A stretch of DNA of 64,000 nucleotides, from contig NZ_CP126741.1 in assembly GCF_030246905.1 (NCBI RefSeq), positions 2,976,001 to 3,040,000 on the forward strand, read 5' to 3'. This DNA is from Microbacterium sp. zg-Y818. Its GTDB lineage: Bacteria > Actinomycetota > Actinomycetes > Actinomycetales > Microbacteriaceae. The notes below the pieces were generated by a model. That model saw nothing but the letters and a program-made list of their open reading frames with translations. It was not told where the DNA came from and did no database searches. Shown here in pieces: positions 32,849 to 37,956 of this stretch (its first letter is position 1; every line of letters begins with the position of its first letter). A program made the position numbers and the translations under genes.

Positions 32849-34252
32849 CTAGAGCGCCCCCGCGGTGCGCCAGCCGCCGTGGTACTCCTGGCGTGCGGTC
32901 TGGGCGTAGGGCACCGGGCTGACGACGGCGCGGACCGCGATCTGCTCGTGCGGCTCCACGGTGGCCTTGCGCGAGCCGCCGTCGGGCTCCCCCCAGACCA
33001 CCCGCACCTCTGCGCCGATCGGCACGCCGCGGTCGACCGTGGCCAGCGACAGCCCTCGCCGCTCGTTCGCCGTCACGCCGGTGAAGAGGGACAGCCCGAC
33101 GGTGTCACCGTCGGCATCGATCACGGCGTCGTAGTTCGACGAGCCGTAGTTGGCATTGGGCAGATCGAAGAACTGGTAGCCCACGCCGTCTCGGTCGATG
33201 ACACTCGCGAGGATGCGGGCGAGGTCTTCGTCGTTCCACGCCAGCGTCACCTTCTTGCGCTGCACCTCGGGGTCGACCTTCTCCAGCGCGTCCCGCCCGA
33301 TGAAGTCGTGGTCGAACTTCACGAACGACCCGTAGCCCAGTTCCCACGGCGTGAGGTAATAGTCCTCGATGTCGTCCGAGACGAACGAGCCGGCGAGCGC
33401 GTTGATCGCCTCGTAGCTGTTCGCGGGCAGCCACTCGCGGTAGGCGCGCTCGGCCTCACCGGTGTAGATCGCCGGCAGCGGCGAGGGGATCCAGCCGGAT
33501 TCGAGCGTGTTCGACGAGTACGCGCGCGAGCCGCAGGGCTCGATGCCGAACTCCCGGCCGGCCTCGAGCACGGCGTCGCGGATCTTCTCGGTGTGCTCGT
33601 ACGGCCCCCAGATCTCCAGGCCCGGCGCCCCCGCCATGCCGTGCCGCAGCGTCCGCACCCGCTCGCCCGCGATCGTGAGGTGCCCCATGTGGAAGAACTT
33701 GACCTTCTCGAGGGGCCCGCCGTTGAGCCGCTCGATGATGTCCCAGGCGTTGGGCCCTTGAATCTGGAAGCGGTAGTAGTCGCGCTTCACCGCCGCCCCA
33801 TACGGGCGCGAGGGCGAGCGGTCGTCGTAGCGGAACTCCACGTCGTAGCCGCCGGTCTCGGCGTGGAACTGCAGCCAGTTCGCCACCGGCGCCCGACCCA
33901 CGTAGACATACTCATCCTGCGCCAGGTGGAACAGGATGCCGTCGCCGATGACCCCGCCCGCCGCAGAGACCGGCACGAACTGCTTCGCGGTGTTCACGGG
34001 GAAGTTCGCGAACGAGTTGATGCCCGTGTCGCTGAGCAGTTGCAGCGCACCCGGTCCCGACAGGAAGAAGTTGACCATGTGATGGGTCTGGTCGAACAGC
34101 ACCGCGGTGTCGCGCCACGCCTTCTGCTCGCGTCGCCAGTTCGTGAATTCCGCCGGAACGACGGGGTAGATGTAGGTACCGAGCTGCGAGTCGCGAAGCA
34201 TCTGGACGATGTTCCCCTTCTCGTCCAGCAGATCCTGCAGGGTGCGTGCCAT
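32849..34252 (-). CDS. LigM/DesA-type O-demethylase, paralogue 2 (syringate candidate)
   Basis: 467 residues, exactly the length of the first LigM and clearly homologous throughout: [65 protein letters not shown]. In sphingomonads two such paralogues divide the work: LigM takes vanillate/3-O-methylgallate, DesA takes syringate. The present gene is divergent from gallate-pathway genes (galB, galC, galD), so syringate or 3-O-methylgallate is the likely substrate. The start is ATG 34252 after GAGAGGG; the frame open to 34312 is upstream sequence. Confidence 0.85.
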
Positions 34253-34346
34253 TGGGGTTTCCCTCTCGACTTCGTCGTCTGATCGGTCTAGCCGTGATCG
34301 TACGGAGACCATTTCCCTCTGTCCATAGTGGTTCTGGTCGCCATGA

Positions 34347-34357
34347 TTGTAAACAAA
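34347..34357. promoter_or_regulatory. putative GntR-type operator in the ligM2/galB control region
   Basis: ATTGTAAACAA contains TTGT-AA-ACAA, an inverted repeat of the FCD-GntR type, in the 164-bp divergent gap between the second ligM and galB. The surrounding 34310-34380 is AT-rich. GATTGT/AAC is shared with the site at 29118. Confidence 0.55.
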
Positions 34358-34416
34358 ATCTTGACCACGTCACGCGCCGTGTGGTTCGCTGATCGAATCG
34401 CCCGACAGGAGTGGAC

Positions 34417-35873: not shown

Positions 35874-36939
35874 CCCGCTGAGAGACGGCATCCGCTGCAT
35901 GCTCATGCGCGGCGGCACCTCGAAGGGCGCGTTCTTCCTCGCGGATGACCTGCCCGCCGACGATGATGTGCGCGACGACCTGCTGCTGCGGATCATGGGC
36001 AGTCCCGACCGGGCTCAGATCGACGGCCTGGGCGGCGCGCACCCGCTGACGTCGAAGGTGGCCGTCGTCTCGGCCTCGCCTCTGGCCGACGTCGACATCG
36101 ACTACCTGTTTCTGCAGGTCGGTATCGACGAACCGGTCGTCGCCGATCTGCAGACCTGCGGCAACCTGCTCGCCGGTGTCGGCCCCTTCGCGCTCGAGCG
36201 CGGGCTTCTCTCCGCGCCAGGCGAGGAGTGCACCGTGCGCATCCGCCTGCTCAACACCGGCGGCGTCGCGACGGTCACCTTCAAGGCCCGGGACGGCGCC
36301 CCGACCTACGACGGCGATACCGCCATCGACGGCGTCCCCGGCACGGCGAGCCCGGTGCTCATCGACCTCGCCGGCGGCGGCGGGCCGCTGCTGCCGACCG
36401 GGCAGGTGAGCGAGGAGATCGACGGGCACCGCGTCACCCTCATCGACAACGGGATGCCGGTGGTGCTGCTGCAGGCAGACGAATTCGCCGTGGCCGGTGA
36501 CGAGGACCCGGTGGACCTCGAGCAGCGCGCCGACCTGCGTGCGCAGCTGGAGCGCATCCGACTCGAGGCGGGAAGGCTCATGGGACTCGGCGATGTCGCG
36601 GCGCAGACCGTCCCCAAGCTCATCCTGCTCTCCGCCCCCGCAGCCGGCGGCGCCGTCTCGACGCGCGCGTTCATCCCGACCCGCGTGCACACGTCGATCG
36701 GCGTGCTCATGGCGGCATCCGTCGCTGCCGGCATCCGCATCCCCGGCGCCGTCGGCTCCGACCTCGCCCGCCTCGAGGCGGATGCCGTCGGCACCGACAT
36801 CGAGCACCCCTCGGGCACCTTCCGCGCCGAGGTGACCGTGGCCCAGGATGAGCAGGGACGCTGGCAGGCGTCGTCGAGATCGATCCGCACCGCACGCAAG
36901 ATCTTCGACGGCACGGTGTACCCCCGTCCGCGCCCCTAG
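35854..36939 (+). CDS. galD: 4-oxalomesaconate tautomerase (PrpF-like)
   Basis: 361-residue protein of the diaminopimelate-epimerase-like PrpF family. It opens GIRCMLMRGGTSKGAFF, the GalD/PrpF hallmark, with VADLQTCGNLLAGVGPFAL carrying the conserved Cys and NTGGVATVTF further on. GalD converts keto to enol 4-oxalomesaconate after gallate cleavage. Overlaps galC by 20 nt. PrpF itself (2-methylaconitate isomerase) is the alternative, but no methylcitrate genes are near. Confidence 0.9.
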   Translation: MTVPGADPLRDGIRCMLMRGGTSKGAFFLADDLPADDDVRDDLLLRIMGSPDRAQIDGLGGAHPLTSKVAVVSASPLADVDIDYLFLQVGIDEPVVADLQTCGNLLAGVGPFALERGLLSAPGEECTVRIRLLNTGGVATVTFKARDGAPTYDGDTAIDGVPGTASPVLIDLAGGGGPLLPTGQVSEEIDGHRVTLIDNGMPVVLLQADEFAVAGDEDPVDLEQRADLRAQLERIRLEAGRLMGLGDVAAQTVPKLILLSAPAAGGAVSTRAFIPTRVHTSIGVLMAASVAAGIRIPGAVGSDLARLEADAVGTDIEHPSGTFRAEVTVAQDEQGRWQASSRSIRTARKIFDGTVYPRPRP

Positions 36940-36960
36940 GACCGTCAGAGAGGACGCCCC

Positions 36961-37956
36961 ATGGCCACCAGTGAGAACTTCGACATCGCCCACCTGGGTG
37001 GCGTGGAGCTGTTCACCCCCAAGTTCGAGGAGAGCCTGCATTTCTTCCGCGACCTCCTCGCGATGCGCGAGGTCGCCCGCATCGGCGACTCGGCCTACCT
37101 GCGCTGCTGGGACGAGTACCAGCTCTACACCCTCAAGCTCACCGCCTCGGACACCAACGGCGTCGGCCGCACGCTCTACCGGGCCTCGGGACCCGAAGCC
37201 CTGGAGCGGCGGGTTGCGGCGATCGAACGCAGCGGGTTGGGTCACGGCTGGCGCGATCCCGAGGTGGGAGTGGGGCGCTCCTACGAGTTCGAGGACCCGG
37301 ACGGGCACCTCATGGCCCTGCACTACGACACCGAGCTGTACGTCCCTGACGACGAGGACCGCCCAGCGCTGAAGAATCAGGCGTCGGCCTTTCCCGGCCG
37401 TGGGGTGAACACCCGGAGGATGGACCACATCAACTACCTCGCCGCCGATGTGACGGCGGCGGGTGAGTTCTGGAGCGACGTCATGTGCGCGCGCGAGTCC
37501 GAGCGGGTGCGACTGGATGCCGGTGGCTACGGCGCCCGATGGTTCCGGTTCAACCAGAAGTCCTACGACGTGGTCTACTCCGACGACTGGACGAAGCAGC
37601 GGGGCCGGTTCCACCACTTCGCCCTCGCACCGGACACCCGCGAGGACATCCTGAAAGCCGCCGACATCTTTCTCGAAAACGGGGTGTACATCGAGTACGG
37701 GCCGTACAAGCACGCGATCAACCAGACGTTCTTCCTCTACGTCTGGGAGCCGGGTGGCAACCGGATCGAGCTGGCCAACGCCGGCGCCCGCCTGCTGCTG
37801 GACCCGGACTGGCCGACCGTCGAGTGGTCCCAGGCCGAGCGCGCCAAGGGACAGGCGTGGGGGATGAAGACGATCCCGACCTTCCACACCCACGGCACTC
37901 CGTATGTGCAGGATCAAGAGGAGCTGGATCGCCGGGCGCTCGCGGGCGAACTCTGA
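36961..37956 (+). CDS. type I extradiol (VOC-fold) ring-cleavage dioxygenase, gallate candidate
   Basis: 331 residues with two vicinal-oxygen-chelate domains (about 8-130 and 152-290). Fe(II) ligands of the second domain are intact: His156 (MDHINYL), His218 or 219 (GRFHHFAL) and Glu270 (GGNRIEL). Asn158 and Tyr260 match second-sphere positions of homoprotocatechuate 2,3-dioxygenase (Asn157, Tyr257 there). It follows galB-galC-galD in one direction, so it most likely opens gallate or 3-O-methylgallate. Known gallate dioxygenases (GalA, DesB, LigAB) are of the unrelated type II fold. Homoprotocatechuate or catechol are alternative substrates, but no hpa or meta-pathway genes lie nearby. Confidence 0.8.
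   Translation: MATSENFDIAHLGGVELFTPKFEESLHFFRDLLAMREVARIGDSAYLRCWDEYQLYTLKLTASDTNGVGRTLYRASGPEALERRVAAIERSGLGHGWRDPEVGVGRSYEFEDPDGHLMALHYDTELYVPDDEDRPALKNQASAFPGRGVNTRRMDHINYLAADVTAAGEFWSDVMCARESERVRLDAGGYGARWFRFNQKSYDVVYSDDWTKQRGRFHHFALAPDTREDILKAADIFLENGVYIEYGPYKHAINQTFFLYVWEPGGNRIELANAGARLLLDPDWPTVEWSQAERAKGQAWGMKTIPTFHTHGTPYVQDQEELDRRALAGEL

Follow-up and report, generated by a model that had tools for sequence, protein, structure and literature searches.

A VOC-fold protein of Microbacterium sp. zg-Y818 as a predicted gallate dioxygenase, and its likely widespread clade in actinobacteria and proteobacteria

Which enzyme opens the ring of gallate, a compound of plant origin, in a bacterium that carries genes for the lower gallate pathway and no recognizable LigB-type gallate dioxygenase? 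The question is raised by a five-gene unit (positions 32849 to 37956) in a 64,000-nucleotide stretch of Microbacterium sp. zg-Y818 (contig NZ_CP126741.1, positions 2,976,001 to 3,040,000; hereafter the window, with position 1 as its first letter). In this unit, a LigM-type O-demethylase gene is divergent from genes for a GalB-type hydratase, a 4-carboxy-4-hydroxy-2-oxoadipate (CHA) aldolase, a 4-oxalomesaconate (OMA) tautomerase, and a two-domain VOC protein. GalA of Pseudomonas putida and DesB of Sphingobium SYK-6 have the type II LigB fold and share with the VOC protein the same predicted reaction, gallate to OMA, and the same partners, galB, galC, and galD. The available part of the AromaDeg description (PMC4250580) assigns gallate and methylgallate dioxygenases to the LigB superfamily, and gallate is absent from the substrates that it gives for type I. 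An earlier note, made from the letters of the window, had proposed the VOC protein as the ring-opener of a route from gallate through OMA and CHA to pyruvate and oxaloacetate, in place of a LigB-type enzyme. Co-occurrence, adjacency, tannase neighbors, and the lack of LigB genes all speak for this proposal, and we consider it highly probable that the VOC protein (36961..37956, + strand, 331 aa) is a gallate dioxygenase that opens gallate to OMA, with the three genes upstream of it leading on to pyruvate and oxaloacetate. We found no report of a VOC-family gallate dioxygenase in the open-licence PubMed Central literature, in a survey that covered it in part and did not take in the study of clustered gallate genes in Rhodococcus opacus PD630 that PMC9942251 cites.

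The make-up of the divergent unit, which had first been read as a PIG-L hydratase, an RraA aldolase, a PrpF tautomerase, and the VOC protein, is borne out by curated models and solved relatives. The PIG-L/GalB-type OMA hydratase (34411..35172, +) has the OMA hydratase GalB 5cgz as its best solved match (E = 8e-76 over the full length; next chain, 3e-6), and it matched no curated GalB model in the curated-model scan. The CHA aldolase of the RraA/LigK/GalC type (35169..35873, +), whose GTG start overlaps the GalB stop codon, passes the CHA aldolase model NF006731 (277.3 bits versus a cut-off of 179) and falls under the cut-off of a second model, TIGR02798 (252.2 versus 304.5). The OMA tautomerase of the PrpF/LigU/GalD type (35854..36939, +), 21 bp upstream of the VOC gene, scores 435.7 bits against the OMA tautomerase model NF033377 (cut-off, 440), and its best solved match is LigU 6p3j (E = 5e-101). 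On the other strand, divergent from galB, LigM1 (32849..34312, −) is a tetrahydrofolate-dependent vanillate/3-O-methylgallate O-demethylase of the LigM type according to curated model NF047885 (911.7 bits versus 580), and it matches chains 5tl4 and 5x1i, which we take to be LigM of Sphingobium SYK-6, over nearly its full length (E = 2e-217); unlike the LigM linked to DesB or LigAB, its genomic partner here is a VOC enzyme. Each of the five genes is an intact open reading frame (ORF), and the four on the + strand from position 34411 either overlap or are separated by a gap of 21 bp. The GC content at third codon positions is 0.90 to 0.92 for LigM, GalB, the tautomerase, and the VOC protein, the four genes in a gene call that did not pick the aldolase frame. 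The closest relatives of the VOC protein belong to Microbacterium.

By fold and metal ligands the VOC protein resembles type I extradiol dioxygenases, from which it departs at one catalytic position. PF00903 (Glyoxalase/VOC) is its sole Pfam match, and it lacks the LigB domain of the type II gallate dioxygenases. Its predicted structure has a two-domain fold, with best structural matches to AphC (7q2a, 3lm4), XylE (1mpy), and homoprotocatechuate 2,3-dioxygenase (HPCD; 1f1r, 4ghg). The triad that the earlier note had listed as intact, His156, His218/219, and Glu270, is indeed complete: His156, His219, and Glu270 align with the two-His, one-Glu metal ligands of HPCD, and His218 is the neighbor of a ligand. 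We aligned 117 sequences, comprising 7 outgroups and a clade of 110 defined by at least 48% identity to the window protein (counting that protein and PDB 9wgj, and omitting L001, the locus of the window itself, and ten short duplicates). Within the clade His156 is conserved in 110/110 members, His219 in 109/110, and Glu270 in 110/110. Position 202, which aligns with HPCD His200, is tyrosine in all 110 members and histidine in all 7 outgroups, so that the second-sphere catalytic histidine of characterized type I enzymes (HPCD His200, BphC His194) is missing from the clade. Lys138, Arg277, and Gln298 likewise set the clade apart (109 to 110 of 110 members, none of the 7 outgroups); Asn158, His251, and Tyr260 fall at further second-sphere positions in the HPCD alignment. 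The change from histidine to tyrosine tracks the OMA pathway in most loci read, and two outgroup genes encoding His at 202 (L141 and L145) adjoin genes for 4-hydroxy-2-oxovalerate aldolase and acetaldehyde dehydrogenase. Tyr202, Lys138, Arg277, Gln298, and linkage to OMA genes distinguish the clade from AphC, XylE, and HPCD. The closest solved chain, 9wgj (E = 1e-106), likewise has Tyr202. A quick tree of 114 sequences (L058 and L064, both longer than 420 aa, and one identical row were dropped, and long branches were flagged) places 9wgj as sister to the rest of the clade, with the branch that unites the clade without 9wgj below the starred support level. Against the catechol 2,3-dioxygenase model TIGR03211 the VOC protein scores 274.0 bits, under the cut-off of 320.2. 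We file it as a VOC-fold protein by its fold and ligands and leave the canonical type I mechanism open; because four stretches of the predicted model, including residues 136-143, 248-255, and 298-320, have a predicted local distance difference test score below 50, we make no claim about its pocket.

The host genome, a single contig of 3.23 Mb given as 100% complete, offers no type II alternative. The earlier note had called for a whole-genome search for LigAB, DesB, and GalA homologues; with the LigB domain (PF02900) as query, this search returned no match at E ≤ 1. The same domain was found in 4 of 14 reference genomes that served as a control. Three further VOC paralogues share 30 to 33% identity with the window protein, and one of them is clearly HpaD (445.5 bits against TIGR02295; cut-off, 321.4). 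The window VOC protein was itself tried as HpaD, and this assignment is ruled out by its score against the same model (161.4 bits) together with the presence of the true HpaD elsewhere in the genome.

Genomes of the host's class show that the VOC gene keeps company with the OMA tautomerase. Among 394 of them, members of the VOC clade occur in 18 (19 matches at E ≤ 1e-70, minus G371, which has 41% identity and His202), a tautomerase of at least 430 bits occurs in 26, and both occur in 17 (Fisher p = 2e-22, a value that ignores the relatedness of the genomes). The 430-bit line admits three genomes just under the curated cut-off, the host included; at the curated cut-off the tautomerase is found in 23/394 genomes, 14 of which have the VOC protein, and the VOC-adjacent tautomerases exceed it in 14 of the 17 genomes holding both genes. 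In 17/17 the gap between the two genes is 37 to 151 bp.

Linkage extends to the rest of the lower pathway in the loci of relatives. We read the neighborhoods of 80 relatives (L023 to L102), the best 80 of 150 confirmed, which come from titled genome records and in some cases end at contig ends; the family was sampled through fetched loci. Tautomerase, aldolase, and hydratase genes all lie within 6 kb of the VOC gene in 64/80 relatives, and a partial set is present in 6 more. The hydratase is GalB in 48 of the 64 and LigJ in 16, LigJ being an amidohydrolase and unrelated to the PIG-L family (for the copy in Kocuria, the match to PDB 2gwg has E = 3e-162). That the VOC gene is kept while the type of hydratase differs points to OMA as the VOC product. 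A compact arrangement of major facilitator superfamily transporter, tautomerase, LigJ, aldolase, and VOC protein contains no demethylase.

Plasmids of proteobacteria carry the same association, in one Agrobacterium with a predicted tannase gene behind it. Thirteen plasmid loci, chosen for variety, were opened of 86 matching records; outgroups L141 and L145 are excluded from clade counts. The order GalB-VOC-aldolase-tautomerase recurs on four alphaproteobacterial plasmid types (Agrobacterium, Rhizobium, and others), and in Pantoea piersonii the VOC gene stands behind an aromatic-acid/H+ symporter gene with galB, aldolase, and tautomerase genes nearby. On pAt of Agrobacterium tumefaciens Kin003, from walnut, a tannase/feruloyl esterase gene (PF07519, 437.9 bits) follows the VOC cluster, and in Agrobacterium vitis a carboxylesterase gene does so. 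Tannases split gallate esters, and the Pfam family PF07519 holds feruloyl esterases too. Across 100 clade loci (the 80 relatives, 11 plasmid loci, and 9 of the 18 VOC genomes of the class, L124 to L133 without L131), a tannase-like gene is no more than about 6.2 kb from the VOC gene in 9, and the 4 of these that were checked against Pfam were confirmed; by comparison, a tannase-like gene occurs anywhere in the genome (E ≤ 1e-40) in 25/394 genomes of the class. The earlier note's description of the route as actinobacterial proves too narrow, since both clade and cluster are also found on alpha- and gammaproteobacterial plasmids. A VOC-fold gallate dioxygenase clade shared by actinobacteria and proteobacteria is, on these comparisons of sequence and gene order, likely to be widespread.

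From these data we infer the substrate, product, and metal of the VOC enzyme and the role of Tyr202. LigM1 would demethylate 3-O-methylgallate to gallate, two adjacent hydroxyls of which would be chelated by the metal that His156, His219, and Glu270 bind; Tyr202 would occupy the site of the catalytic histidine. Cleavage of the bond between two hydroxyl-bearing carbons would then yield OMA, which tautomerase, hydratase, and aldolase would convert to CHA and on to pyruvate and oxaloacetate, a pathway that is given in a figure legend of PMC9942251. Gallate carries three hydroxyls in a row, so that cleavage of the bond that leads to OMA is extradiol relative to one hydroxyl pair and intradiol relative to the second; an unusual second sphere may therefore be tolerated or even needed. 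The wider proposal, that a second family of gallate dioxygenases exists with the VOC fold in actinobacteria and in alpha- and gammaproteobacteria, with tyrosine for the catalytic histidine and exploiting this extradiol/intradiol duality, seems to us only slightly favored over its negation.

Several observations weigh against gallate as the substrate of the VOC enzyme. The clade lacks the histidine that extradiol enzymes of both types are held to require: according to the available part of PMC3962378, type II DesB and type I BphC have this essential residue in equivalent positions, and no activity could be detected for the His192Phe mutant of DesB. Sister to the rest of the clade, and also with Tyr202, is 9wgj, which was deposited as "Catechol 1,2-dioxygenase" though it is of the VOC type. 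In the class, 9 of the 26 tautomerase genomes have no member of the VOC clade. Five of these nine have a LigB match at E ≤ 1e-60, within about 3.3 kb of the tautomerase in four of the five, and two more have weaker LigB matches; the remaining two, G252 and G391, have a tautomerase above the cut-off, no VOC clade member, and no LigB match at E ≤ 0.001, and perhaps use a third kind of ring-opener. Conversely, G209 and G390 carry both VOC and LigB genes. That the tautomerase often adjoins either a VOC or a LigB gene, with these exceptions, is as expected of alternatives. On plasmids, Chimaeribacter and Pantoea At-9b (both enterobacterial) have the VOC gene with no other pathway genes nearby, and a single cluster in Roseomonas gilardii (L134, 7046-9963) combines the VOC gene with a LigB-type gene and a hydrolase gene.

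Also adverse are the 10 of 80 relatives with no lower-pathway gene within 6 kb of the VOC gene. A LigB search that covered 47 of 50 chosen VOC genomes (L028, L064, and L083 were outside it) found some PF02900 protein in 11/47, with E-values of 4e-91 to 9e-88 in four. This search took in 5 of the 10 relatives in question, and four of them (L023, L025, L040, and L063) carry a strong LigB-type gene elsewhere, adjoined by LigK, LigJ, and a LigI-like gene. The four LigB proteins pass the fused protocatechuate 4,5-dioxygenase model (854.4 to 874.4 bits versus 837) and fall under the gallate dioxygenase cut-off (325.7 to 337.2 versus 412). Where the VOC locus has no lower-pathway genes of its own, such protocatechuate 4,5-dioxygenase clusters elsewhere, with their LigK and LigJ, favor gallate as the VOC substrate, and the lower-pathway enzymes encoded there could also process the VOC product. 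The four genomes are nevertheless ambiguous, since the LigB enzyme could itself serve gallate: the similar PcaA of Pseudarthrobacter, a single-chain, type II protocatechuate 4,5-dioxygenase, converted gallate to OMA with 44% of its activity (PMC8431788, in part). In the fifth relative, L059, the LigB search of its genome found no LigB cluster, and this too counts against gallate as the VOC substrate.

The best-surviving alternative, which we nonetheless regard as unlikely, is that the VOC enzyme cleaves 3-O-methylgallate directly, to OMA methyl ester or 2-pyrone-4,6-dicarboxylate (PDC), and that LigM1 serves mainly vanillate. It draws on the frequency of LigM genes, present with at least 60% identity within 6 kb of the VOC gene in 63/80 relatives, and on an amidohydrolase gene near the VOC gene in L043 and L045 (Pfam Amidohydro_2 in L043, the one checked), given that PDC hydrolase belongs to the amidohydrolase family. 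Set against this, LigM-free stretches in Agrobacterium, Paracoccaceae, Pantoea, and Kocuria hold hydratase, aldolase, and tautomerase genes, and one of them a tannase gene, which points to free gallate; moreover, no esterase gene was seen in the core cluster.

A somewhat weaker case can be made for protocatechuate, cleaved at the 4,5 or 2,3 bond, in which case the OMA genes would belong to a meta pathway for this compound. The VOC protein does score with the catechol (274.0) and homoprotocatechuate (161.4) dioxygenase models, under both cut-offs, and LigM can make protocatechuate from vanillate. The protocatechuate 2,3-dioxygenase PraA of Paenibacillus may share the VOC fold, and protocatechuate 2,3-cleavage is reportedly the subject of Kasai et al. 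2009. Against protocatechuate, the 4,5 route needs a 4-carboxy-2-hydroxymuconate semialdehyde dehydrogenase and PDC hydrolase, neither of which is among the annotated core clusters, and four VOC genomes encode a protocatechuate 4,5-dioxygenase elsewhere. (The absence of a PDC hydrolase was dropped as an argument against a protocatechuate meta route in the host, whose genome has four Amidohydro_2 proteins.) The window also encodes protocatechuate 3,4-dioxygenase, with PcaH, the beta subunit, at 3013..3834 (−; TIGR02422, 330.7 bits versus 296.4) and PcaG, the alpha subunit, at 2456..3016 (−; TIGR02423, 168.4 versus 126.25; the ORF spans 2456-3298, and the start is not settled). With PcaHG in the window and a separate HpaD in the genome, protocatechuate and homoprotocatechuate are each provided with a separate enzyme, and we think cleavage of protocatechuate by the VOC enzyme improbable. 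Reading of the ORFs suggests that pcaHG belong to a beta-ketoadipate branch (299-4698) that continues with a pcaB-like gene and an alpha/beta hydrolase gene and includes an IclR-type regulator gene at 3904-4698.

That another enzyme such as PcaHG opens gallate while the VOC protein handles another catechol or only detoxifies is very improbable: the genome does encode PcaHG, gallate is a slow substrate of protocatechuate 3,4-dioxygenases, and the clade lacks the catalytic histidine, but the metal ligands are conserved, the VOC gene adjoins the OMA tautomerase gene in 17/17 genomes with both, and PcaG and PcaH, the sole PF00775 matches in the genome at E ≤ 0.001, are encoded more than 30 kb away.

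If the VOC enzyme acts on gallate, the route upstream of it reaches less far than was first supposed. The earlier note had begun the pathway at syringate, with a LigM/DesA-like demethylase; the LigM half of that label stands, the DesA half does not, and the syringate step is left unsupported. Besides LigM1, the window encodes a second LigM-type O-demethylase, LigM2 (21307..22818, +; NF047885, 849.2 bits versus 580), and neither LigM1 (633.9) nor LigM2 (605.8) reaches the cut-off of 800 of the DesA syringate O-demethylase model NF047633. A PF01571 search found four proteins in the genome, and the DesA model was scanned on the two of LigM type (L147 and L150 are the other two). Because both LigM-type proteins are under the DesA cut-off, only demethylation of 3-O-methylgallate or vanillate is predicted. 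LigM2 could feed vanillate to protocatechuate or could act on syringate, and a syringate route here would depend on LigM1, on LigM2, or on an unrelated enzyme for its first step. In relative L025, a further nearby protein matches the DesA model (573.4; cut-off, 800) better than the LigM model (512.9; cut-off, 580) and is under both cut-offs.

Other genes recur around the VOC gene. A MetE C-terminal-domain-like methyltransferase (29232..30350, +; NF005085, 548.0 bits versus 313) is encoded within 6 kb of the VOC gene in 27/80 relatives and could accept the methyl group that LigM removes. The adjacent NAD-binding/DUF1932 dehydrogenase-like protein (30372..31166, −) recurs in 49 VOC-bearing loci, a few of them counted both as a short and as a long copy, including those of Agrobacterium, Rhizobium, Pantoea, and Roseomonas. 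Genes for a Liv-type ATP-binding cassette (ABC) transporter, assigned to this family by reading the ORFs and comprising one permease and two ATPases (26674..29153, −), possibly encode an aromatic-acid importer; relatives of LivF with at least 60% identity are found in 28/80 loci, and the Agrobacterium and Roseomonas clusters carry annotated branched-chain-type ABC genes. Sugar-type ABC importer genes beside LacI-type regulator genes, also read from ORFs, occupy 38943-42100 (−) and 56428-59691 (−).

Compared with known enzymes that meet gallate, the VOC clade stands apart. GalA and DesB differ from it in having the LigB rather than the VOC fold, and DesB has its catalytic His192 where the VOC protein has Tyr202 (PMC3962378, in part). 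Pseudarthrobacter PcaA is, like the window VOC protein, actinobacterial and has been shown to turn gallate into OMA; it differs in its LigB fold (PMC8431788, in part). The catechol 2,3-dioxygenase BLC23O of Bacillus ligniniphilus is reported to have cut the phenolic content of gallic acid in solution by 14% over 6 h, a slow side activity whose product is not named in the available part of PMC9925492, and its substrate table, in the portion of PMC8671467 at hand, has no gallate and gives 0 for protocatechuate; it is compared here by its reported activity.

The reaction proposed here is known, and so is the fold; the pairing is new as far as the literature surveyed shows, and it comes with a striking second-sphere change. 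If the proposal is correct, many bacteria would break down gallate and tannins by means of a family whose members now carry the annotation "catechol 2,3-dioxygenase" or "VOC family protein," and surveys based on LigB would miss gallate breakdown for that reason. The VOC clade would represent a case of non-orthologous replacement in the metabolism of lignin and tannin, at one of its central steps. It would also be a natural test of the role that the second-sphere histidine plays when the ring is cleaved; mutants at this position have been studied in homoprotocatechuate dioxygenase, with PDB structures for H200N, H200Q, H200E, and H200C.

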